From positions 1 to 43,239 of IMG/VR virus record IMGVR_UViG_3300009494_000008: 43,239 nt of DNA. One strand, written 5' to 3'. The translations under genes and the position numbers were made by a program. Below are positions 9,444 to 43,208 of this stretch, piece by piece. The DNA comes from a virus. How positions within the stretch are numbered: position 1 is the first letter of the stretch; the number at the start of each line of letters is the position of its first letter. The notes under the pieces are model-generated. The model was given only the letters and a program-made list of their open reading frames with translations, ran no database searches and was not told the origin of the DNA.

Positions 9444-9752
9444 CTATTCCTCGTCGTCGAAGAAGGCCGCGAGGTCGTACTCGCCGTCGGGTGTTCGTGC
9501 CACCTCGACGTGCTCCCCGGGCGTATCGAGTATGCGCCGGAGGAAGGGTTCCGGTTTCTCGCCCTTGGCCTTGATCGGGTCGTTGATCCTGCTCGGATCG
9601 TCCCCGATCAGATAGGCCGCGAGCTCTGCGATCTTGCCGGAAGTCCCGCACGCGGCGGCGATTCCGACGTGGAATATGTCCTCCTTCGTGACAGCCTGAG
9701 CGGTGCGATAGCCCTCGATCGCGTCGCGGGCTTCTAGCTCGTCGAACCCTCG
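9444..9752 (-). CDS. Tail assembly chaperone C-terminal extension (gpGT-like, -1 frameshift product)
   Basis: A 102-residue frame with no suitable start codon, lying between the gpG-like gene and the tape measure. It begins in the -1 frame at the slip site 9752-9758 and runs RGFDELEARDAIEGYR through to AAFFDDEE before TAG. Joined to the first 274 residues of the upstream protein it gives a 376-residue fusion. The size, position and frame relation match the lambda G/GT system. It has no Shine-Dalgarno site, so independent translation is unlikely. Confidence 0.8.
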   Translation of the reverse strand, partial: RGFDELEARDAIEGYRTAQAVTKEDIFHVGIAAACGTSGKIAELAAYLIGDDPSRINDPIKAKGEKPEPFLRRILDTPGEHVEVARTPDGEYDLAAFFDDEE

Positions 9753-10573
9753 GGGCCCGAGGCCGTAGAGTCGGACGACGGCTCCGCGGACTCTGCGCCC
9801 GACGGTGCGGGCGTAGACGCTGTAGCCTCCTTGCTGTCGTCCTCCTCCTCGTCCTCCTCGACCACTTCTGTTCCGAGGATCGAAAGGGATTCCCCCAAGT
9901 AGTCGCGCACCTCACCGATCACGATAGCCGCGCGGGTGATCCGCATAGCCTCACCCGGAAGAAGATTCTCCTCGGCCCATGCGCGATCCTGTCCGACCGC
10001 GAGGCCCGCGAGCTCGTACATCAGGTTCGACTCGGCCGAGACCTTGGCCGCGGCGATCACCGCCATCCTCCCGCGCTCTGCGACATATCTCTGCACGGCG
10101 ACGCCGGCGACGCGCTCGGGGTGCCAGTCCGGGTGCTCGTCCCTGATCTGAGTCTGGAAGTGGTCGATCGGGGGAGTTTCGGCCCGCTCCATGAGCCCGG
10201 CGAAGGCCGTCGAGACCACCTCAATGAAGGTCCCCATCGGCTTGATCACGAGCGGATCGGGAACGTACTTCACGTTGTAGGTCCCGGCCTCGACGATCTT
10301 CTCGATCTCGGCCTCGATCCGTTCCTTGCGCTTCTCTGCCGCCGTTTTCTTCTTCGGCTTCTTGGGGACCTCGTCGGCCACCTCGGGCGGCACTTCAACG
10401 TCGAGCGTGATGTCCGGGGGGGCGTCAGCCGTGGCCTCCCCGGCCGGCTTCTCGTTCGGTTCGGCCTCGACTACAACGCGACGGAGGAGCTTCTTCGCTC
10501 CGTCCGTTTTCACCTCACTTGTGGGTGAGTCCTCGGGCCCCGATTCGGGCTTCTTCTCCTCTGACTGCGACAC
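9734..10573 (-). CDS. Tail assembly chaperone (gpG-like)
   Basis: 279 residues. The GTG at 10573 is preceded by AGGAGATCCCGA; the open frame extends upstream but without a site. The N-terminus (~1-95) is charged and Pro/Lys/Glu-rich, probably disordered. A helical core follows (~95-235, with FIEVVSTAFAGLMERAE and YVAERGRMAVIAAAKV), then an acidic Ser/Ala/Pro tail. It overlaps the preceding gene by 59 bases. The extra N-terminal region is unusual for a gpG protein. It is expected to coat the tape measure before tube assembly. Confidence 0.8.
   Translation of the reverse strand: MSQSEEKKPESGPEDSPTSEVKTDGAKKLLRRVVVEAEPNEKPAGEATADAPPDITLDVEVPPEVADEVPKKPKKKTAAEKRKERIEAEIEKIVEAGTYNVKYVPDPLVIKPMGTFIEVVSTAFAGLMERAETPPIDHFQTQIRDEHPDWHPERVAGVAVQRYVAERGRMAVIAAAKVSAESNLMYELAGLAVGQDRAWAEENLLPGEAMRITRAAIVIGEVRDYLGESLSILGTEVVEEDEEEDDSKEATASTPAPSGAESAEPSSDSTASGPEGSTS
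9752..9758 (-). other. Probable -1 ribosomal frameshift site GGGCCCC
   Basis: Read in the gpG frame as tcG GGC CCC, this heptamer fits the X XXY YYZ rule and lets both tRNAs re-pair after a one-base backward slip. It lies 15 bases before the gpG-frame TAG stop. Slippage opens the 102-codon extension without any stop until 9446-9444. Confidence 0.7.
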
Positions 10574-11120
10574 TCGGGATCTCCTGTTCTTCTGCCGAGA
10601 GTTCTGATCTCTCGGAGGCCAACCGCGCGATGCCATCGACTAGGTTGACGGCAAACGCCTTATTCTGGAGGCTCGTCGGTCGGCCGGTTTTCCGCTCGAA
10701 CTCCTCCCGTAGCTGTTCGACTATCCGCATCAGTGCATGATGCTGGACACCGTAGACAGGAGGGCTAAACAGTGTGCCGTTGAACCACATATCCTTCTTC
10801 GCTTTGGCGAGTCGGTGCGAGTGCTCGAACGGCGCGAGCGCAAACATCACGACGGGCTTCCATTCTCGGAGCTCCCGTCGCCGCACATCCTCGGGCCCCT
10901 CGTATACGAGCCGGTTCTTGCCGGACGTGCCCCGTCGCCGCTTCTTCGGAATCTTCCTCGGCTTGAGCTCGATGTACGCGAACGCGAGCTCTACCGGCGG
11001 GAGTGCATCCTCCGAGTCGATCACGCCATCCTTGATGATGTAGTTCTCGATCATCATGGCGGCGACGAGGTTGACGTCCGAACAGCACCAGTAGCCCTTC
11101 GTTATCTGCCACAGTGCCAT
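10515..11120 (-). CDS. Hypothetical tail-region protein, 201 aa
   Basis: Not recognised. It lies between the major tail protein and the tail chaperone. The N-terminus MALWQITKGYWCCSDVN precedes a hydrophobic/helical region, a basic stretch (KPRKIPKKRRRGTSGK, ~53-68) and a C-terminal helical region with heptad character (MRIVEQLREEFERKTG). The last 59 bases overlap the chaperone start. It could be a chaperone-associated or tail-completion protein; only its position supports this. Confidence 0.7.
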   Translation of the reverse strand: MALWQITKGYWCCSDVNLVAAMMIENYIIKDGVIDSEDALPPVELAFAYIELKPRKIPKKRRRGTSGKNRLVYEGPEDVRRRELREWKPVVMFALAPFEHSHRLAKAKKDMWFNGTLFSPPVYGVQHHALMRIVEQLREEFERKTGRPTSLQNKAFAVNLVDGIARLASERSELSAEEQEIPSVAVRGEEARIGARGLTHK

Positions 11121-25927: not shown

Positions 25928-26380
25928 CTACTCTCTCGAGACCACGGACACGACAACGCCGACGCTCCACTCGTTCGTGTCGAAGTCGTAGCGTCCGCAC
26001 AGGCCGGCGTTCGCGCTGATGAACTTCGCCCAACTGACCCCGACGCCGAGCTTCTCGAGGTTCGTAACCGGCACGGTGAGCCCGATCAGCGCGTCGTCAA
26101 AGCCCTTCTTCTCCGTTTCCTCGTCGATGTCGAATGTCACCCCCGCGATCACGCTGACGTTCTTGTAGGAGGTGAGCTCCGGCGCGATGTAGGGTTGACT
26201 GGCTCCGGTCTTGAAGTCGAACAGGAACCCGCCTTGTCCGACAATGGCGGCCTCCCAATCCGAGGCCGGCTCCTCTGCCGGCACGGGAGGCGTGACCCCC
26301 AGTGAGTCGGGCATCTGTGCCCAAGCTCCCGGCGCGAGCAGTAGAACGACGGCCATCACGATTACGATGCACCTTGCCAT
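25928..26380 (-). CDS. Secreted beta-rich protein, 150 aa
   Basis: The ATG at 26380 gives a classical signal peptide: MARC, a hydrophobic core of about 14 residues and an AWA-Q cleavage site near 21/22. The mature part has alternating beta segments (YIAPELTSYKNVSVIAGVTFDID; ALIGLTVPVTNLEKLGVGVSWAKF; EWSVGVVVSVVSRE), like a small outer-membrane beta-barrel or periplasmic protein. It may act at the host envelope, for example superinfection exclusion. The upstream Arg-rich extension is rejected. Confidence 0.7.
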   Translation of the reverse strand: MARCIVIVMAVVLLLAPGAWAQMPDSLGVTPPVPAEEPASDWEAAIVGQGGFLFDFKTGASQPYIAPELTSYKNVSVIAGVTFDIDEETEKKGFDDALIGLTVPVTNLEKLGVGVSWAKFISANAGLCGRYDFDTNEWSVGVVVSVVSRE

Positions 26381-26473
26381 CAGGACCGCTCCTTTCCTTC
26401 GACGTGCTCTCCCTCCCGGCGAACCGGCGCCGGCTCCGTGTACGAGCCGAGATACCATGTCGCGCCGTTCTCG

Positions 26474-26716
26474 TCAAGGGCGTTCCTTCGCCAGCACTTC
26501 CTCGAGGGGGATTTCTATGAACTTCGGGAGGAGGATCTTGGGCGTCACATCCTTGGGCCCGTAGCGGTAGAACATGGGCCACCAGTACTCGTGACCCCAC
26601 GTCGCGACCATCACCTCGGCCACACCGTCGGAGAAGAAACAGATCGAGCGCACGGCATCGGCCCCGCGAGCGAACTCGTCAAGGAAGTGGCGATTGCGGA
26701 ACACGCGAACGCTCAT
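26474..26716 (-). CDS. Hypothetical protein, 80 aa
   Basis: ATG at 26716 overlaps the preceding stop (TGATG), so the two are coupled. Mixed alpha/beta (FLDEFARGADAVRSICFFSDGVAEVMVATWGHEYW...). Residues ~20-60 could form a small beta-sheet domain. No family recognised. Part of the cluster of small genes after the GT4 glycosyltransferase. The 93 bases after it hold no gene, only a GC-rich imperfect inverted repeat near 26418-26436. Confidence 0.6.
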   Translation of the reverse strand: MSVRVFRNRHFLDEFARGADAVRSICFFSDGVAEVMVATWGHEYWWPMFYRYGPKDVTPKILLPKFIEIPLEEVLAKERP

Positions 26717-26961
26717 CAGTTGATCTCCTCCTTCCTGAGATCTATCTGCTCAGATGAACCATCACGCCGCCGATGAACGGCGAACGTCGTGTGATCAACC
26801 CACTCGTCGTCCTCCGGGGTTGCGGTGATCACATCCTCCGGCCCCGGGGGGCCCGGCGTGTCGAGGCCGATCTTGTAGCACGGGCGGCAGTCGCGGATCT
26901 CCCGGAAGCGGCGTCGAATACTAACGACGATCCTCCTCCACAATTCTCTGAGCAAAAACAC
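26716..26961 (-). CDS. Hypothetical protein, 81 aa
   Basis: GTG start at 26961 preceded by AAGGAGGACGCGC. The N-terminus is amphipathic and basic (LLRELWRRIVVSIRRRFREIRD), a possible membrane-surface helix. A short DCRPCYKIG motif and a Pro/Asp-rich middle follow, then a beta segment (TTFAVHRRRDG). No family recognised. It overlaps the 44-aa gene upstream by 41 bases in another frame. Confidence 0.6.
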   Translation of the reverse strand: MFLLRELWRRIVVSIRRRFREIRDCRPCYKIGLDTPGPPGPEDVITATPEDDEWVDHTTFAVHRRRDGSSEQIDLRKEEIN

Positions 26962-27055
26962 GCGCGTCCTCCTTGGTCAGTAGTTCCGGGGCACGGACTG
27001 TCCGCATCACCCGCCGCGCGAGCCAATAGAGGAAGCGGAGGATCAGATGTCGCAT
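26921..27055 (-). CDS. Small basic amphipathic protein, 44 aa
   Basis: ATG at 27055 with GGAGGCGATCGAGCG upstream, starting within the last codons of the glycosyltransferase gene and overlapping the next gene. The N-terminal helix (LILRFLYWLARRVMRTV, 4-20) is hydrophobic/basic; the C-terminal half is charged. The two overlaps make it less certain than its neighbours, but spacing and ribosome-binding site are good. Confidence 0.5.
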   Translation of the reverse strand: MRHLILRFLYWLARRVMRTVRAPELLTKEDARVFAQRIVEEDRR

Positions 27056-28185
27056 CGCTCGATCGCCTCCTCGTAGAGCTCGTGATACCGGAGGCCAGCT
27101 TTCGTGTGGGGCTCGAGGGACTTCGCGAAGTAGGCCGAGGGCTTGGGGTTCTCGATCGCGTCCATGATCCGGGCGGCGATCGCCTCCGGCTCGGGCTCCG
27201 TCGTCATGCAGTTGAACCCGGGCTCGAGTTGGCCGAAGAAGTCGTCGCCGGCGAAGTCGGTCCCGATCACCGGCATGACCTGATAATCCCACGCTTCGAG
27301 GATCGGGTATTCGGTGCGGCCGGTGTCGCTCTCATCGAACATCGTCATATTGACGACGACGGCCGCCGTGCCGTAGATCTCCCGGATCTGCGTATCTTCC
27401 CATGCTCCGTGATCGTCGCAGTTAGCCATCCCGGGGAGATTCTCGACCATGTCCTCAACGTAGCCCACACCGTCACCGCTCCAGAACTCGAGCGGCATGA
27501 TCTTTCCTCCCTCCCTGTGAGGAGGTGTCAGGAGAGCGGCGTCGGCGGGATCTCGGCTGACTGGGAGGTGGCCGGCGGCCTTCACGATGAGGTCAATCCG
27601 CTTGACCGGCCTCCACGCGGAGGTGCACACGGCCCGTCTGAGCTTGAGGAGGGGCTCCGTGGGATTGGTGCGCCTCACGTACGGTTGCAGAGCCGATCGG
27701 GCCTTGTCGGCCATCGTCGGCGTGTCGACGTAGCCGGCACTCACGAAGTGTTGCATGTACCGTGGGCTCAGGAACGTGACGATGTCCGCGACCTCACACA
27801 ACCTGATCAGCGTCGGGCCGAGGACCTCGATCTCGTGTGGATCGTGCACGGTGAGGACGAGCGGGCCATGCTTGGTCGCGAATAGCTGATCCCAGTCGAA
27901 CCCGAGGTGCAAGCTCCCGGGGTTCGTGATGTGCACCACATCGTGCCGGCTCCAGAGATCCTCCCAACCACAGGTCAACCGCTCCTCCGCTATGAACTTC
28001 TCGTCGGGGCGCTTGATACATCCCTTGTCGACACAGATGATCCGGCCCTTCTTCTCGTCCGTCCGGCCAATCCGGTATTGAGATACGTCATTCCCTGTTC
28101 CCCGGAGTTGGGCCGCGAGGTGATCCTGAAACGACGCGGCCCCGCCGTACTTGGCGAGACTGGTCGTGCACAGTGCTATTCGCAT
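27043..28185 (-). CDS. Glycosyltransferase, GT4 family-like (GT-B fold)
   Basis: 380 residues; the ATG at 28185 overlaps the preceding gene by 10 bases, and the longer open frame is an Arg-rich shadow. The start MRIALCTTSLAKYGGAASFQDHLA has the nucleotide-sugar GT-B opening with a Gly-Gly loop. Further features are HDVVHITNPGS, LVLTVHDPHE, CTSAWRPVKRIDLIVKAA and EYPILEAWDYQVMPVIGTDFAGD, which resembles the conserved donor-binding acidic region. It would transfer a sugar from an NDP donor to host surface glycan, a virion protein or DNA; the substrate cannot be told. Confidence 0.82.
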   Translation of the reverse strand: MRIALCTTSLAKYGGAASFQDHLAAQLRGTGNDVSQYRIGRTDEKKGRIICVDKGCIKRPDEKFIAEERLTCGWEDLWSRHDVVHITNPGSLHLGFDWDQLFATKHGPLVLTVHDPHEIEVLGPTLIRLCEVADIVTFLSPRYMQHFVSAGYVDTPTMADKARSALQPYVRRTNPTEPLLKLRRAVCTSAWRPVKRIDLIVKAAGHLPVSRDPADAALLTPPHREGGKIMPLEFWSGDGVGYVEDMVENLPGMANCDDHGAWEDTQIREIYGTAAVVVNMTMFDESDTGRTEYPILEAWDYQVMPVIGTDFAGDDFFGQLEPGFNCMTTEPEPEAIAARIMDAIENPKPSAYFAKSLEPHTKAGLRYHELYEEAIERCDI

Positions 28186-28994
28186 CGTTCGCCGTCCTTC
28201 CACGGGGGCCATTTCTCGAGGAAGCGATCGCGGTCCTCCTGCACGTCGGGGCGTGTGATCCACCACGGCTCCTCGTCGAATCGGCCGCCCTGAGTCGCGC
28301 CCTCGAAGTGATAGATCCACTCGTCCTGCACGCAGACAACCGGCCGGCCAGTTGTGTGCCGGAGAGTGAGGGAGAGATCCACGTCCTGCCAGAGCGTGCG
28401 GTAGCCGACATCGAACCCGCCGACGAGCTCGAAGTCTGCCGGCGTGACGAGCACGCACGCGCCGGTCACGGCCCACGTTTCAACCCAGTCAGGGGAGGAG
28501 AACGCGGGAGAGTCCTTGTCGGCGTAGAGGCCGCGATGCGTCCCGGTGCCGCTGTGTCCCCGGTGGTGCCCACAGTGCTGAATCTTGCCCGGCGCGACTC
28601 GATCCTCCGGGTAGATCAGCTTCAAGCCGACCTCGGAGGCGTGCGCTTCCCCGTGCGCGCGGATCATCGACGTGAGCCAATTCGATTCGTCGGGCGCCTT
28701 CACGTCGTCGTTGAGGAACAGGAGGTAGTCGAGGTTTGAGTGATTGGCGCCGTACCGCTGAGTCAGGATCCGCGCGAGCTCGTTGTTGAAGCCGGCGAAG
28801 GAGAACGCCTGATCGTCGAAGAAGCGAACCACGTCGACATCGGGGAAGTCGTCCGTCGCAGTCGGATCGACCTTGTAGAGCCCGAGGGCGAACGCGATCG
28901 CGACACCCTCGGGGCAAGTCCGCTTGACCGACCGCATCGCCTGAGCGGCGAGCGCCGGCGTGCTCGTCAGCATCACGCAACCGACTAGGATCAT
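28176..28994 (-). CDS. Glycosyltransferase, GT2 family-like (GT-A fold)
   Basis: 272 residues; the ATG at 28994 overlaps the previous stop (ATGA). Features: a Rossmann-like start MILVGCVMLTS; a DxD-type LFLNDDVK (N95-D96-D97) for metal/NDP-sugar binding; and GACVLVTPADFELVGGFDVGYRTLWQDVDLSLTLR, the acceptor-side block typical of GT2 enzymes of the rhamnosyltransferase type with a catalytic Asp. Paired with the GT4 enzyme it suggests two-step glycan synthesis. Confidence 0.85.
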   Translation of the reverse strand: MILVGCVMLTSTPALAAQAMRSVKRTCPEGVAIAFALGLYKVDPTATDDFPDVDVVRFFDDQAFSFAGFNNELARILTQRYGANHSNLDYLLFLNDDVKAPDESNWLTSMIRAHGEAHASEVGLKLIYPEDRVAPGKIQHCGHHRGHSGTGTHRGLYADKDSPAFSSPDWVETWAVTGACVLVTPADFELVGGFDVGYRTLWQDVDLSLTLRHTTGRPVVCVQDEWIYHFEGATQGGRFDEEPWWITRPDVQEDRDRFLEKWPPWKDGERCE

Positions 28995-29395
28995 TCGGGC
29001 CTCACTCCACACGCACCCGGACAGACGACGAAGATCTTGACGTCCACGACCTCACACAAGGCGGTGAACGTCTGTCCGTCAAGCTCGGCCGTGCATGTCA
29101 CCCTGTAGTCGTAGCCCTCGAAGTCCGGGAGAGTGAAGGTCTGAGTGTGCTCGACACCGACGCCGAGGTGCGGGACGTTGTCGACAAGGACGGTATAGAG
29201 CTCCGAACCAGTCAGTGCGAACTCGAACGTGTAGTGAACGGTCGCCTCGGTGGGGAACTCCTCACAGCCGGGCCCACCGAAGCCGGCCCAGTAGAACACG
29301 CCGAAGGCGTCGGGGAGATAGGTCGTCGCGTTCGCCCACGCGGGGCTCAGAACGCAGATTGCCACGAGCAGGATCACAACCTGAAACGTCCGCAT
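28991..29395 (-). CDS. Secreted Cys-containing protein with C-terminal CPGACGVRP motif
   Basis: 134 residues with a signal peptide (MRTFQVVILLVAICVLSPAWANA; cleavage near 21-23). The mature region is Ig-like and beta-rich (VHYTFEFALTGSELYTVLVDN; HTQTFTLPDFEGYDYRVTCTAEL) and carries several Cys that could form disulfides outside the cytoplasm. It ends VVCPGACGVRPE. The next protein ends in almost the same motif, so the two form a pair. Function unknown; perhaps anchored or recognised through the C-terminal motif. Confidence 0.7.
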   Translation of the reverse strand: MRTFQVVILLVAICVLSPAWANATTYLPDAFGVFYWAGFGGPGCEEFPTEATVHYTFEFALTGSELYTVLVDNVPHLGVGVEHTQTFTLPDFEGYDYRVTCTAELDGQTFTALCEVVDVKIFVVCPGACGVRPE

Positions 29396-29398
29396 TGA

Positions 29399-29662
29399 TC
29401 AATCCTCCTGCGGCCTCACGCCGCACTCGCCGGGGCAGATCACGAATCCTGTCGTGTCGCACCCTGTGTTGATCGTGACCGTGTGACGGCCCGCCGGAAG
29501 GGACTCGACGATCGCGAACTCGAGAATCCCGAGAGCGTCAGCCGCGTGATCCCCCGGGACAGACGCACCGTCAACGGTCACGGTGTAGCAGGTATCCGGC
29601 TCGACGCCGATCAGGACGTGGTCGCCGGCACGAGCGGGCGTCCCCGCGACGATCACCGCCAC
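29399..29662 (-). CDS. Probable secreted protein, C-terminal CPGECGVRP motif; start uncertain
   Basis: The frame encodes a hydrophobic leader (IARAFLVAVIVAGTPARA), a beta-rich Ig-like region (YTVTVDGASV; LEFAIVESLPAGRHTVTINTG) and the end VICPGECGVRPQED, paralogous to the neighbour. The first usable start is GTG 29662 (87 aa), which would shorten the leader. A full signal peptide needs initiation near 29686, where no ATG/GTG/TTG is seen. An in-frame ATG at 29794 lies inside the preceding gene in shifted frame. Rare-codon initiation or a +1 shift from the dockerin-like gene is possible. Confidence 0.5.
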   Translation of the reverse strand: MAVIVAGTPARAGDHVLIGVEPDTCYTVTVDGASVPGDHAADALGILEFAIVESLPAGRHTVTINTGCDTTGFVICPGECGVRPQED

Positions 29663-29687
29663 GAGGAACGCCCGCGCGATCGGAACC

Positions 29688-29879
29688 CTACATCGGCCAG
29701 TCGTCCCAGTTGGTCGTCCAGTAGTAAACCAACCAGTCCCACAGGTCCCAGTTGTCGTCGTCGCCGTTGACGTCGGCCGCGATCGCGACATCACCGGGCA
29801 CCGACACCGGCAAGCTGGCCGTCACCATCGGCCCGAAGGCTATCAGGCAAACGACGAGCAGGATCAGGGTGAGCTTCAT
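29688..29879 (-). CDS. Secreted 63-aa protein with dockerin-like half repeat
   Basis: A signal peptide (MKLTLILLVVCLIAFGPMVTAS) is followed by a short mature part holding AADVNGDDDNWDLWDWL. The spacing of acidic residues, DVNGDDDNWDLWDW, resembles one calcium-binding half of a type-I dockerin; the second half is missing. It ends with a Trp/Asp-rich tail. The ATG at 29879 has GGGAGGCTCAG upstream. A role in extracellular attachment or as a decoy is speculative. The last base pairs carry ATGTAG. Confidence 0.65.
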   Translation of the reverse strand: MKLTLILLVVCLIAFGPMVTASLPVSVPGDVAIAADVNGDDDNWDLWDWLVYYWTTNWDDWPM

Positions 29880-30465
29880 CTGAGCCTCCCTCCTGCACCT
29901 CCGCAAAGTCGGGGGGCACAACCCCCCACCTATTGCCGCCCCACAAGAGCCACTTCCGCTCCGGGCGGGGCAGAGAACCCGGAGCGAATCGCAGATATGC
30001 ACGGTAGCCGCCGTCGGTCGACCGGGCCAACTCAACCCCTGTCGATCCGACGACGACTCCGCTCCGCGAGCAGAGGACGGCGCGCCCGTCCGCGGTCGGG
30101 AACACTACTTCTAGTGTCCCGATCTCTCCGGTCGGGTAGAAGAACACAACTCGCGTGTTCCCAGTCAATGACCATCGCGAACCGTCCTCGACGTAGACGA
30201 TCATCCGAAGATAATCGCCCTTATTCTCGAACATGTAACGGTAGACATCTAGCCGGCCGGCGGTGAGGAGCTTGTGCCCGGTTGCGTCGAGTGCGGCCGG
30301 GCTCGGATCGACGATGCTCCACACAGCCATCGTGTCGCCGGGTGTGATCTCGAGTGTCGTCAACCAGTCGATGTGTGCGGGGGGGCCGGCGAACGCCCCA
30401 CACATCCCGAGGATGCCCACTTGCACCGCGGCCATGATCAGCATGATCGTGAGCGCCTTCACCAT
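29791..30465 (-). CDS. Secreted hypothetical protein, 224 aa
   Basis: The ATG at 30465 is favoured (GAGGG nine bases before it; another ATG lies three codons earlier). Signal peptide: a hydrophobic run ALTIMLIMAAVQVGILGMCGAFA. The mature part is beta-rich (DWLTTLEITPGDTMAVWSIVD; YLRMIVYVEDGSRWSLTG; TRVVFFYPTGEIGTLEVVFP; RAYLRFAPGSLP), resembling a fibronectin/Ig-like extracellular domain. The last ~30 residues overlap the dockerin-like gene, and a GGGGGG/CCCCCC hairpin (29911-29927) lies in the overlap. Confidence 0.65.
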   Translation of the reverse strand: MVKALTIMLIMAAVQVGILGMCGAFAGPPAHIDWLTTLEITPGDTMAVWSIVDPSPAALDATGHKLLTAGRLDVYRYMFENKGDYLRMIVYVEDGSRWSLTGNTRVVFFYPTGEIGTLEVVFPTADGRAVLCSRSGVVVGSTGVELARSTDGGYRAYLRFAPGSLPRPERKWLLWGGNRWGVVPPDFAEVQEGGSDEAHPDPARRLPDSLRADGDGQLAGVGAR

Positions 30466-30635
30466 GTGCGGCATCCCTCCCCCTCGAGGCCCTTCCGTAG
30501 CAGATCGACCACGAGATCCTTGACTACGCACAGAGCTAGAACGAGGAGCCACCACACAGCCGCGACGAAGTGGTAGAAGGCGCGCGGGAGGTCGGACCAC
30601 GTCGTGTCCTCGTATCCTTCCGGGATCTTCCTCAT
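30459..30635 (-). CDS. Small single-pass membrane protein, 58 aa
   Basis: ATG at 30635 overlaps the methyltransferase stop region; the stop overlaps the next start. Residues ~21-46 (YHFVAAVWWLLVLALCVVKDLVVDLL) form one membrane helix; the termini are charged. No family recognised. Close coupling on both sides supports it as real. Confidence 0.65.
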   Translation of the reverse strand: MRKIPEGYEDTTWSDLPRAFYHFVAAVWWLLVLALCVVKDLVVDLLRKGLEGEGCRTW

Positions 30636-31228
30636 GGTAGTGTGACCGCCTTCGGGTCCTTGTGAATGATCGTCGTCGCGTCGCGCTCGGTGCCCGCGAA
30701 ACTGGTCAACGAGAACCCGAGCTCCAACCGGAGGCGGCCGAGCATTGTCTCGGTCGTTTCCGGCGCGTCCTGCCGGCCGAACCCGTCGAGCCGGCTCGTG
30801 TGTGTGTCCTCTATCACGTAGAAGCCGCCGGATCTGACCGACGGCCAGAGGGCCGCGAAGCTGAGTTGTTGTTGCCACATCGTGTGGCCGCCATCGTCGA
30901 GGATGATGTCGAACCGGCCGCCGGCACGGAGTACGACACTCCAGAGATCGGGCACTCGCGCTTGGTCGCCGGCGAAGATCGTCACGCGATCCCCGCGCGG
31001 CCAGAGGTCGGGGTTCCCCATGTTGCCGTTCTCGAGTCCGAAGATATGCGCGTTCGGGAAGTAGTCGAGCCACATCCGAAGGGAGGCCCCGTCCTTGACA
31101 CCGAGCTCGAGCACCTTCGTGACGCGGTCGCGGTAGGGACCGAACACCTGCTCGTAGAACGGGCAGTAGCCGTGGCAAGCCTTGTCCGTGCCGTGCTTGA
31201 CTGCCAACTCGTGTAGAGTCTCGGCCAT
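30632..31228 (-). CDS. SAM-dependent methyltransferase (macrocin O-methyltransferase-like)
   Basis: 198 residues. ELAVKHGTDKACHGYCPFYEQVF at the start and the SAM-binding LELGVKDGASL (40-50), FPNAHIFGLE, and FDIILDDGGH (106-115, likely metal/catalytic Asp and His) match the MycE/TylF-related sugar O-methyltransferase group. GGFYVIEDTHTS follows as in the family. It would methylate a hydroxyl on a sugar or other small acceptor with SAM. Placed upstream of two glycosyltransferases, it probably caps the same glycan. Confidence 0.85.
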   Translation of the reverse strand: MAETLHELAVKHGTDKACHGYCPFYEQVFGPYRDRVTKVLELGVKDGASLRMWLDYFPNAHIFGLENGNMGNPDLWPRGDRVTIFAGDQARVPDLWSVVLRAGGRFDIILDDGGHTMWQQQLSFAALWPSVRSGGFYVIEDTHTSRLDGFGRQDAPETTETMLGRLRLELGFSLTSFAGTERDATTIIHKDPKAVTLP

Positions 31229-31504: not shown

Positions 31505-31627
31505 CTAGTCGTCGAGGTTCGGCATGATCAGGACCTTGATCACGACGACTACCAGAACGATTGCGAGGCCGCAAGTCCAAACCATCGGACTGAGGGCGCT
31601 CAGATAGTCAGTGAAGGTCGTCAGCAT
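31505..31627 (-). CDS. Small membrane protein, 40 aa
   Basis: ATG at 31627 overlaps the stop of the preceding gene (31621) by 7 bases. Almost the whole chain is one hydrophobic helix (MVWTCGLAIVLVVVVIKVLIM, ~15-35) with a short polar N-terminus and an acidic end. Second gene after the sigma-54-like promoter. Could be a pinholin-like or envelope peptide; no family. Confidence 0.55.
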   Translation of the reverse strand: MLTTFTDYLSALSPMVWTCGLAIVLVVVVIKVLIMPNLDD

Positions 31628-31773
31628 GTCCTCGTGCTCCTCATCAGGTCCCGGATCCCGTCGGCCGCTAGGGCGACTGTGAGGGCGATCGCGGCGAGCA
31701 TCAGGATCATCGAGGTCGAAAGCGTGAGCGCGAGCGGTCCTGCTATTCCGAGTGTCAGTGTGAGCGTTCTCAT
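31621..31773 (-). CDS. Small membrane/leader protein, 50 aa
   Basis: ATG at 31773 preceded by GGGAGGACGGA. A hydrophobic segment (IAGPLALTLSTSMILMLAAIALTVALAA, ~11-38) and a charged tail (DGIRDLMRSTRTC). It could be a signal-anchored peptide. First gene of the long operon that begins at the sigma-54-like promoter 31801-31829; an in-frame upstream extension crosses that promoter and is rejected. Confidence 0.6.
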   Translation of the reverse strand: MRTLTLTLGIAGPLALTLSTSMILMLAAIALTVALAADGIRDLMRSTRTC

Positions 31774-31800
31774 TCCGTCCTCCCTTCTGCCCTGTTGTAG

Positions 31801-31829
31801 TGCAAGCCCCGTGCCAATCGCTCTGTTAC
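31801..31829 (-). promoter_or_regulatory. Sigma-54-like promoter of the late operon (core-only copy F)
   Basis: GTAACA (31829-31824), 7 bases, TGGCACGGGGCTTGCA (31816-31801) on the minus strand. The core matches the sigma-54 consensus fully, with GG-N10-GC spacing. Unlike the other copies it lacks the conserved downstream block, which shows that the GTAACA and TGGCAC/TTGCA parts are the selected elements. The next gene starts 28 bases downstream, and no other promoter is obvious before the terminator at 1468-1502. Confidence 0.7.
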
Positions 31830-32990: not shown

Positions 32991-33360
32991 CGTCACCTCC
33001 CGGTGTGGCGAACACCGTCGCTTGGGTGTACGTCTCGACGATCCTCGTCAGGCTTCTAACGAGGTGGCTCAGTTGCCGAAGCGCGTTGTGTTGCTGGCTG
33101 ATGAGGATGTTCTGTCGCGTGTAGGTCTCGTCCTCCTTCACCTCGAGCTCCCCCGTGGAGATCTCGGGGATCATCACGCCGACGGGCCATGCGATAAGGT
33201 GCACGGTGCGGTCGTCGACCGCGAGCATGGTCCCTGCCTCCTCGACGATCGCGAGGTCCGCGACCTTCGCCTTCTCGAGCGCGTCGATCACTAGCACTTT
33301 CGTGTGGTCGTCCATGTCCGTGTTCGACAAGACGGCCGCGCGGATCGTGTGTCTGCTCAC
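32974..33360 (-). CDS. Hypothetical protein, 128 aa
   Basis: GTG start at 33360 with GGAGGGAGGAGCGA upstream. Alpha/beta N-terminal half (TKVLVIDALEKAKVADLAIVEEAGTMLAVDDRTVHLIAW), then a helical C-terminal part (NALRQLSHLVRSLTRIVETYTQA). No family recognised. Overlaps the preceding stop by four bases (GTGA). Confidence 0.65.
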   Translation of the reverse strand: MSRHTIRAAVLSNTDMDDHTKVLVIDALEKAKVADLAIVEEAGTMLAVDDRTVHLIAWPVGVMIPEISTGELEVKEDETYTRQNILISQQHNALRQLSHLVRSLTRIVETYTQATVFATPGGDDAPST

Positions 33361-33965
33361 TCGCTCCTCCCTCCGGGCCCGGGAGCGGTGCGATCCCACT
33401 CCCAACCTATGCGCTCCTCCTTCGGCAACCACAGAGGGTGCGCGCTGAGATCGTCGTATGCGATCTGATAGTAGTAACCGTCGCCCACGAGCGCCCGGAC
33501 CAACGGCCGTTGGAAGCCATCGAGGACTTCATACTTCCACTGGGCGACGTGAGCTCCGGGTGTCATGTAGGGCCCGAACTCCGGTCGGCTTCTGTACTTC
33601 CTGATCTCTCCCTTCGGGCTCCACTTGATCCGCTTGCATGATGCGGCGATCGCCTCGAGATCCCGGCGAACGATCAGCACTGATAGGTGAGCCTTGCAGA
33701 GCCGCGGATCTCCGAGGAGGTGCGACTCAGCACACAGACCGGGCGCGTGGAGCACACTCGATTCGCGTTCGAGGATCTCGATTGCGCGTCTGACGTTGGC
33801 TATGTCGATCGCGCGCTCGTCGTAGTAGTCGTAGCCGAGGTCGGCCGCGACCATCTTCGCCGCGATCCGGGTCCCCGATCGATGGGGCCCAGTGACGAGG
33901 ATCGACGTCGGGCGAACTGGGCCGCGGCAACCACTGGTGAACACTCTGTCGAAGATCGAAGTCAA
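33357..33965 (-). CDS. P-loop sulfotransferase-like protein
   Basis: 202 residues, TTG start at 33965 (GGGAGGGAAGCCGAG upstream). SILVTGPHRSGTRIAAKMVA (~21-40) resembles the PAPS 5'-phosphosulfate-binding loop; HLSVLIVRRDLEAIAASCKRI resembles the 3'-phosphate-binding segment with its Arg/Ser; YYYQIAYDDLSAHPLWLPKEERIGWEW is like the C-terminal end of sulfotransferases. A small kinase of similar fold cannot be excluded. Sulfation of a glycan or other acceptor is a possible role. Confidence 0.6.
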   Translation of the reverse strand: MTSIFDRVFTSGCRGPVRPTSILVTGPHRSGTRIAAKMVAADLGYDYYDERAIDIANVRRAIEILERESSVLHAPGLCAESHLLGDPRLCKAHLSVLIVRRDLEAIAASCKRIKWSPKGEIRKYRSRPEFGPYMTPGAHVAQWKYEVLDGFQRPLVRALVGDGYYYQIAYDDLSAHPLWLPKEERIGWEWDRTAPGPGGRSE

Positions 33966-40416: not shown

Positions 40417-40488
40417 TCCTCCGTTGGGGCCTCTGCTTCTCACTTCCGACTACCTACAGTGCAAGCCCCGTGCCAGAACTCGTGTTAC
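40417..40488 (-). promoter_or_regulatory. Repeated promoter element with sigma-54-like core (copy C)
   Basis: GTAACA (40488-40483), 7 bases, TGGCACGGGGCTTGCA (40475-40460): a full match to the sigma-54 consensus with correct spacing. The downstream block CTGTAGGTAGTCGGAAG and GGAGGAG lead to the zinc-ribbon gene 39918-40409. It follows immediately after the hairpin at 40492-40522. Confidence 0.7.
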
Positions 40489-40892: not shown

Positions 40893-40967
40893 CTCCTCCG
40901 GTCTTAGGGCCTCTGTTGTCGCTTCCGACTACCTACAGTGCAAGGCCCGTGCCAGAGTCCGTGTTAC
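40893..40967 (-). promoter_or_regulatory. Repeated promoter element with sigma-54-like core (copy D)
   Basis: GTAACA (40967-40962), 7 bases, TGGCACGGGCCTTGCA (40954-40939): full sigma-54 consensus match. GTAACA and the core lie in the last codons of the DUF5131 gene, whose TAG stop (40935-40933) comes from the conserved CTGTAGG block. One sequence thus serves coding and promoter roles. Confidence 0.7.
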
Positions 40968-42948: not shown

Positions 42949-43130
42949 ATCCCCCGCGGGTTCACCCTTCTGTCGGGCGGGCCGTTGAGGGGCACACCGT
43001 GGTCGTGCTTCCAAGCACAGCCGGCACAAGCCTTGCCACGAGCCGGATAGTACATATGGAGGTCTACGAGGAATCGAACTCTCTTGCCGCACTGAGGGCA
43101 GGTCTTGGTGGTCTCGGTCTGCTTCGTCAT
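42945..43130 (-). CDS. Zinc-ribbon protein, 61 aa
   Basis: ATG at 43130. CPQC (C11, C14) and CAGC (C35, C38) form a complete zinc ribbon. The N-terminus is Thr/Lys-rich and the C-terminus basic (RRVNPRGM). A single-gene cassette between two promoter elements; the stop codon lies inside the next element. Its 5' end is repeated at 1-51. DNA- or RNA-binding is probable from the fold only. Confidence 0.8.
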   Translation of the reverse strand: MTKQTETTKTCPQCGKRVRFLVDLHMYYPARGKACAGCAWKHDHGVPLNGPPDRRVNPRGM

Positions 43131-43162
43131 TCTCTCATCCTCCGTTCGGGCCTCTGTTGTCG
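43080..43162. repeat. Terminal redundancy with bases 1-83
   Basis: Identical to bases 1-83, showing that the ends of the window join in a circle or that the genome is circularly permuted. From about 43134 on the sequence instead equals 1135-1241. The two matches share the 24-base promoter-leader segment that starts at 55, 1136 and 43134. Confidence 0.85.
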
Positions 43163-43208
43163 CTTCCGACTACCTACAGTGCATAGCCCGTGCCAGAAGT
43201 CGTGTTAC
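43136..43208 (-). promoter_or_regulatory. Repeated promoter element (end copy G, identical to copy A)
   Basis: GTAACA (43208-43203), 7 bases, TGGCACGGGCTATGCA (43195-43180). Identical to copy A and followed by the same bases up to the -10 TATGAT at the window's edge. It stands in front of the intact zinc-ribbon gene, whereas at the left end that gene is preceded by copy B. Confidence 0.6.

Follow-up and report, generated by a model that had tools for sequence, protein, structure and literature searches.

Do putative glycan enzymes and small exported proteins that lie together in a phage late region form one functional set, and on what would they act? This question is raised by a block of genes in the IMG/VR virus record IMGVR_UViG_3300009494_000008, of which all 43,239 bases were analysed (hereafter the window; GC content 63%). 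The block occupies positions 31228-25928 of the minus strand, upstream of TerS and on the same strand as the late genes, which include TerS (named by position), TerL (phrog_38), a portal fused to a head morphogenesis domain, a tape measure, an NHL-repeat tail protein and an Amidase_3 endolysin (2929-2261). Judging from the sequences of the window and its relatives, this glycan-plus-export block is a real and partly conserved feature of an uncultured phage lineage, and not yet a demonstrated system. We tentatively read it, with chances somewhat below even, as late cargo in two layers, in which cytoplasmic enzymes most likely glycosylate virion proteins and exported proteins would act in the host envelope.

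Gene order in the window and its relatives

Reading down the minus strand from 31228, the window carries genes for a methyltransferase, a 58-residue protein, four exported proteins (starting at 30474, 29879, 29683 and 29395), a GT2-like glycosyltransferase and a GT4-like glycosyltransferase. These are followed by two small genes, a further gene for an exported protein (26380-25928), an ASCH-like gene, TerS and TerL. The block genes are uniform in direction and the gaps between them are short. We scanned viral contigs with GT2, TerL and GT4 and obtained four clear relatives besides the window: G001 (IMGVR 3300009494_000005; TerL 83% identical to that of the window), G002 (3300011118_000010; 57%), G004 (3300028883_000080; 55%, recovered via GT2 rather than by the TerL scan) and G003 (3300028920_000137; 49%). 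Counts among five phages refer to the window and these four records, all five of which may be fragments. Fifteen loci came out of the TerL scan, 12 of them at 20-29% identity. When 28 window genes were searched by tblastn (E 0.01) in these 12 loci, TerL alone was found, and the same search in more distant GT2-derived contigs recovered GT2, one weak TerL piece and nothing else. In the phage reference collection, the TerL of the window has weak matches only.

We found that G001 preserves the whole order of methyltransferase, membrane-like protein, four exported proteins, GT2 and GT4, with block proteins 71-90% identical to those of the window. The ratio of nonsynonymous to synonymous substitution rates (dN/dS) is 0.13-0.56 in 12 window/G001 gene pairs, that is, in 12 of the 13 listed pairs, with the 58-residue gene left out. 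In the more distant G002 and G004, a gene for an exported 29683-family protein precedes GT2, and GT4 is also present. The order of a 29683-family member, GT2 and GT4 is found in four of the five phages, the window included. Exported proteins are encoded right next to GT2 in the window and G001, whereas G002 and G004 have them further upstream. The distance between GT2 and GT4 in G004 is about 4 kb, with a tiny exported peptide encoded beside GT4. Because G001 keeps the order and G002 and G004 keep the exported-GT2-GT4 arrangement, the set does not appear to be a chance neighbourhood, and the pattern of presence and order across the relatives suggests a core of exported protein, GT2 and GT4 with optional additions. 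The set can nevertheless be split: two of the five phages have the methyltransferase, and G003 has an exported protein of the 29395 family without either transferase.

A first-pass annotation of the window had described the block as a coupled set that builds and caps a glycan and displays small proteins outside the cytoplasm, and had named scattering of the genes singly among relatives as one outcome that would speak against this. Such scattering is mostly not seen, since the core order is kept in four of five phages. The coupling proposed there was not confirmed for the methyltransferase, which is confined to two phages, or for the exported protein at 25928, which is displaced in G002 and was not found in the G001 stretch searched.

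The divergence between the window and G001 is uneven. Nucleotide identity climbs to 76-93% within 29400-30100, and the synonymous rate (dS) is 0.33-0.38 in the 30474, 29879 and 29683 genes, against 0.67-1.28 in the other nine genes computed. The low values may stem from frames that overlap in part, from an exchange in the recent past or from a constraint of some other kind.

Predicted sugar O-methyltransferase and glycosyltransferases

The 198-residue protein encoded at 30632..31228 (minus strand, as are all window genes given below) is, by homology, a sugar O-methyltransferase, as the first-pass annotation had held. In phmmer searches it matched the macrolide sugar O-methyltransferases MycE (3ssm, E 2.8e-24) and TylE (8ia9, E 4.3e-21) over residues 5-167, and it is half as long as these enzymes (397-419 residues). 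We take 3ssm to be MycE; the structure entry itself reads 'Methyltransferase'. The protein also matches PF13578 above the cut-off and phrog_21658, and its dN/dS between the window and G001 is 0.20. Fourteen records in the phage reference collection match it, nine of which are Mycobacterium phages; two of the 14 were inspected. In the Mycobacterium prophage prophiFSIL01-1, a homologue (38% identity) directly follows a glycosyltransferase gene, with TerS and TerL downstream.

We then investigated the two glycosyltransferases that the same annotation had named. A Pfam scan of the window GT2 protein itself (28176..28994) gave no match, and one of four members of its close family has a weak one (0.0035). 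All three of the more distant homologues tested match PF00535, and FxNDD (NDD) and QDxDL are invariant in the family alignment. The GT-B (GT4-like) protein (27043..28185) belongs to a family with an invariant DTGRTEYPILE stretch, in which all four members match Glyco_transf_4 (PF13439) weakly, at E up to 0.01 (best 5.3e-8), the window member at 0.0082 and under the curated cut-off. On account of these weak matches within the families and the matches of distant homologues, we regard both as glycosyltransferases with moderate confidence, GT2 through its distant homologues. Each family occurs in four of the five phages, the window included (three of the eight other records searched), and G003 has neither. 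No phage of the reference collection matches the GT4-like protein, a PHROGs search with its family returned nothing, and solved structures searched with the GT2 and GT4 profiles gave chance-level matches only. The maximal hydropathy over 19 residues is 1.58 for GT2, 1.53 for the GT4-like protein and 0.92 for the methyltransferase; by this measure neither transferase has a membrane span.

Exported and small membrane-like proteins

A mechanical signal-peptide scan over every minus-strand open reading frame of the window gave five positives: the 30474, 29395 and 26380 proteins, the 29879 protein (given with a start further upstream) and an internal start in the tape measure gene. All except the last fall within this 4.5 kb. 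Four of the five exported proteins proposed by the first-pass annotation thus pass the scan, and the fifth (29683-29399) has a signal-like stretch, which went unflagged because no ATG, GTG or TTG precedes it. The maximal 19-residue hydropathy is 2.1-2.5 in four exported proteins and 1.42 in the 29683 protein as read. At 29660-29690 (minus strand), AGGG stands ahead of an ATC codon near the signal-like stretch of the 29683 protein, with the same arrangement and near-identical surroundings in G001; the protein may begin at a non-standard codon or reach about 36 residues further at its N terminus.

The 29683 protein (29399..29683), with the C terminus CPGECGVRPQED, represents the exported family of the core. 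Its count of four in five phages, the window included, comes from a profile built including those members; an independent two-sequence profile finds G002 at E 7.4e-4 and G004 at E 0.036, both as top matches. The next exported protein (28991..29395) has a signal-like N terminus and the C terminus CPGACGVRPE. By profile, its family is found in G003 (E 1.5e-13) and weakly in G004 (E 0.008), and in G002 by position only. An AlphaFold2 model of this protein is a predicted beta-sandwich (pLDDT 74, pTM 0.59). Its best fold matches, considered with an Fn3/Ig-like domain in mind, are not significant and lie at background level (Foldseek E 0.037; VIA Z 6.9, root-mean-square deviation 2.3 over 74 residues). 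The C-terminal motif CPGxCGVRP is common to these two adjacent exported proteins (29399-29440 and 28991-29030, minus strand), and tblastn connects the two families through it at E about 6e-4. The G003 homologue ends in SGSCGVKRL.

Two further exported proteins with signal-like N termini are encoded upstream. The first (29791..30474; 227 residues) is 76% identical in G001 and has a positional look-alike in G002 with no statistical support; its structure model (pLDDT 49) is too poor for searching. An early idea, formed by eye, that it is CBM9-like was dropped, as no analysis supports it. The second (29688..29879; 63 residues) is a tiny protein with a Trp-rich C terminus, 89-90% identical in G001; short Trp-ended, exported-looking peptides in G002 and G004 gave no significant score against it. 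Profile searches support neither the 29395 counterpart in G002 nor the 30474 and 29879 counterparts in G002 and G004, which rest on position and appearance. The last exported protein (25928..26380), also with a signal-like N terminus, has a single viral relative. A homologue of it is encoded between TerL and the portal in G002, and it had no match in the G001 stretch searched. It is probably an independent neighbour outside the core. Searches of the phage collection with the 29395, 30474 and 26380 proteins gave no match.

Three small hydrophobic proteins accompany the block. The 58-residue protein (30459..30635) has a hydrophobic stretch, is membrane-like by eye and has a positional counterpart in G001 (L002:8353-8526). 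Upstream of the methyltransferase, a 50-residue hydrophobic protein (31621..31773; dN/dS 0.17) and a 40-residue single-span-like one (31505..31627; dN/dS 0.35) are both conserved in G001.

Proposed function and rival explanations

By analogy with known phages, virion decoration appears to be the best-precedented role for the enzymes. According to two reports (PMC12363180, PMC11256854), mycobacteriophages encode glycosyltransferases with which they glycosylate their capsid and tail tube proteins, and in Rhodococcus phages a glycosyltransferase and a methyltransferase were taken to suggest glycosylated virions (PMC13313380). The window resembles the mycobacteriophage case in having phage-encoded soluble glycosyltransferases, subject to the family caveats above, and in the prophiFSIL01-1 arrangement of a homologous methyltransferase beside a glycosyltransferase upstream of the terminase. 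Unlike in that case, the enzymes of the window have exported proteins alongside. Freeman et al. 2023, cited in the two mycobacteriophage reports, reportedly described virion glycosylation in the mycobacteriophages Che8, Corndog and Myrna. For the exported proteins, a likeness in size, export and late position is seen with exported phage morons and superinfection-exclusion proteins such as lambda Bor and Lom or T5 Llp. One literature search that combined superinfection exclusion and glycosyltransferases gave no title.

In the reading that we tentatively prefer, the soluble GT2 and GT4-like enzymes, themselves supported by sequence, would assemble a short glycan on an acceptor in the cytoplasm; a sugar of that glycan would be O-methylated by the MycE/TylE-like enzyme in the two phages that have it. 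Since the transferases are soluble and encoded in the late region, the acceptor would most likely be cytoplasmic at virion assembly, and, as in glycosylated mycobacteriophages, most likely a virion protein. The small Sec-exported proteins, one of them a predicted beta-sandwich, would reach the host envelope (periplasm or membrane) at a late stage of infection, as their signals suggest, and would most likely act against competing phages or at the receptor. Both layers would be made simultaneously, from a common position and probably one transcript, and not as one biochemical pathway. The occurrence of the 29395 family without GT2 or GT4 in G003 indicates that the layers can separate. The evidence in favour is the order in G001, the exported-GT2-GT4 arrangement in two distant relatives, the methyltransferase homology, the prophiFSIL01-1 arrangement, the missing membrane span and GtrA, and the distant endolysin.

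Several results weigh on the other side. A host search in bacterial genomes with TerL and with GT4 gave no relative. The glycosyltransferase profiles, which are shallow (four sequences), matched none of the few glycosyltransferases compared, and the window enzymes are not detectably related to that of prophiFSIL01-1 in these comparisons. In the Cosmo methyltransferase region, no glycosyltransferase is annotated within 4 kb. The mycobacteriophage glycan site would lie at the C terminus of the capsid or tail tube protein, and no obvious Ser/Thr-rich C terminus was seen on the capsid or tail tube proteins here, whose genes were named by position and appearance; the prediction that the glycosyltransferase-bearing phages have such C termini failed. 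That export genes and glycan genes have stayed together in phages at 55-57% TerL identity could mean that they form one pathway. A presumed protein of the tail chaperone region (9734-10636, minus strand) has a Ser/Thr/Pro/Gly-rich C-terminal tail in the window, G001 and G002.

In one coupled pathway, the two transferases and the methyltransferase would make and cap a glycan, either to modify the host envelope or to be borne by the exported proteins themselves; the position of the exported genes at or upstream of GT2 and the co-directional, closely spaced genes would suggest such a pathway. We consider it unlikely, as no GtrA flippase was found in any of the five phages at E up to 1 (possibly fragmentary records; of 14 control genomes, 13 gave a signal), neither transferase has a membrane span, and the methyltransferase is restricted to two phages. 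With the cap enzyme so restricted, the 25928 protein displaced and the exported 29395 family present in G003 without transferases, the first-pass annotation picked the right genes, and its single build-cap-display pathway is not favoured over the two-layer reading. Receptor modification, another of its suggestions, is supported by neither a flippase nor a membrane-bound transferase as far as the Gtr type is concerned. P22-type GtrABC O-antigen conversion (PMC11436027) likewise involves a phage-carried glycosyltransferase, but the window block has neither a GtrA-type flippase nor a membrane-bound transferase, and membership of this family was rejected, the missing GtrA arguing against such conversion in all five phages. 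A narrower version, in which the two transferases attach glycans (O-methyl-capped in some phages) to the exported proteins while these are still cytoplasmic and before Sec places them in the envelope, where they would mask receptors from rivals, with CPGxCGVRP as a candidate recognition or anchoring tag, seems highly unlikely.

The genes might instead be independent morons at a variable site between the replication and packaging genes, their order reflecting common descent only. The extra genes found either between GT4 and TerL or immediately before TerL do differ among the relatives (some named by eye): G001 has ParB-like and B12-binding/radical SAM genes, G002 a gene for a Mom-like DAM/GNAT protein, and G003 radical SAM and 7-deazaguanine-type genes. 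The 25928 protein also changes place. However, the core order persists in four of five phages at TerL identities down to 55%, which leaves this explanation rather improbable. Very doubtful is the idea that the exported and small membrane proteins assist lysis, for example as spanins or disruption peptides, beside an unrelated glycosyltransferase insertion: the tiny Trp-rich exported peptide, the several small hydrophobic proteins and the late position would fit, but the amidase is encoded about 26 kb away, at 3209-2261 together with a small membrane-like neighbour, and no spanin family of PHROGs or Pfam was found among the ten proteins scanned. Least probable, in our estimate, is hypermodification of phage DNA by the transferases and methyltransferase. 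Neighbouring genes of the relatives resemble DNA modification genes, and the RTEYPILE stretch of the GT4-like protein is the sole piece that aligns with T4 alpha-glucosyltransferase (19 columns; E 0.2, not significant). The methyltransferase resembles sugar enzymes, though, and no reference-collection phage matches the GT4-like protein. Searches of the five phages, whose records may be fragments, turned up neither a thymidylate-synthase-like hydroxymethylase nor TET/JBP, which argues against classical hydroxymethyl-base DNA glycosylation; the TET/JBP result is the weaker one because the model did not reach its cut-off in any of 14 control genomes either.

Promoter-like sites and other features

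We then investigated the region upstream of the block, where the first-pass annotation had placed a late promoter. A promoter-like site, TGGCACG-N4-TTGCA, is found at 31780..31816 (minus strand; core 31816-31801). By consensus match, it resembles a sigma-54 promoter with -24/-12 elements. G001 retains TGG and TTGCA at the corresponding place with equal spacing. By eye, a sigma-70-like TTGCAC-17-TATCCT lies just upstream. Allowing up to one mismatch, the window holds six sites, against 0.29 expected in shuffles. These TGGCACG-N4-(T/A)TGCA sites are at 102-117, 1183-1198, 31801-31816, 40460-40475, 40939-40954 and 43180-43195 (all minus strand), and a conserved TGTAGGTAGTCGGAAG stretch follows five of the six. 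The stretches of the four relatives have no close site matches, save one single-mismatch site in G003. Such a family of sigma-54-like sites would be unexpected in a phage; among the titles listed by a literature search on sigma-54 and phage promoters, none concerns sigma-54 promoters in phages. An exact 77-base direct repeat at the ends of the record (1-77 and 43080-43156) lies within a larger family of imperfect repeats, and the record may be terminally redundant or its ends may be repeat copies.

A protein with a P-loop-like GPHRSGTR stretch (33357-33965, minus strand), 61% identical in G001, is possibly sulfotransferase-like by eye, and it had no Pfam, PHROG or phage-collection match. In G003, L009:3623-8772 contains genes that by eye are of QueD, QueE, FolE and DpdA type, together with a radical SAM protein (PF04055) and a GT-B-like protein, and is probably a 7-deazaguanine DNA modification region. 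The product of L004:6993-8354 in G002 combines domains resembling phage DAM and GNAT (PF22555, PF22559) and is a candidate for Mom-like antirestriction.

Conclusions

From its genes, the block appears to belong to an already known kind of system, phage glycan modification, on which its composition would be a variation. Virion glycosylation by phages has been reported only recently and, in the reports considered here, in actinobacteriophages. A conserved glycan block fixed beside exported proteins in an uncultured lineage would widen this field, and the named block genes allow a direct test of virion glycans and of effects on the envelope.

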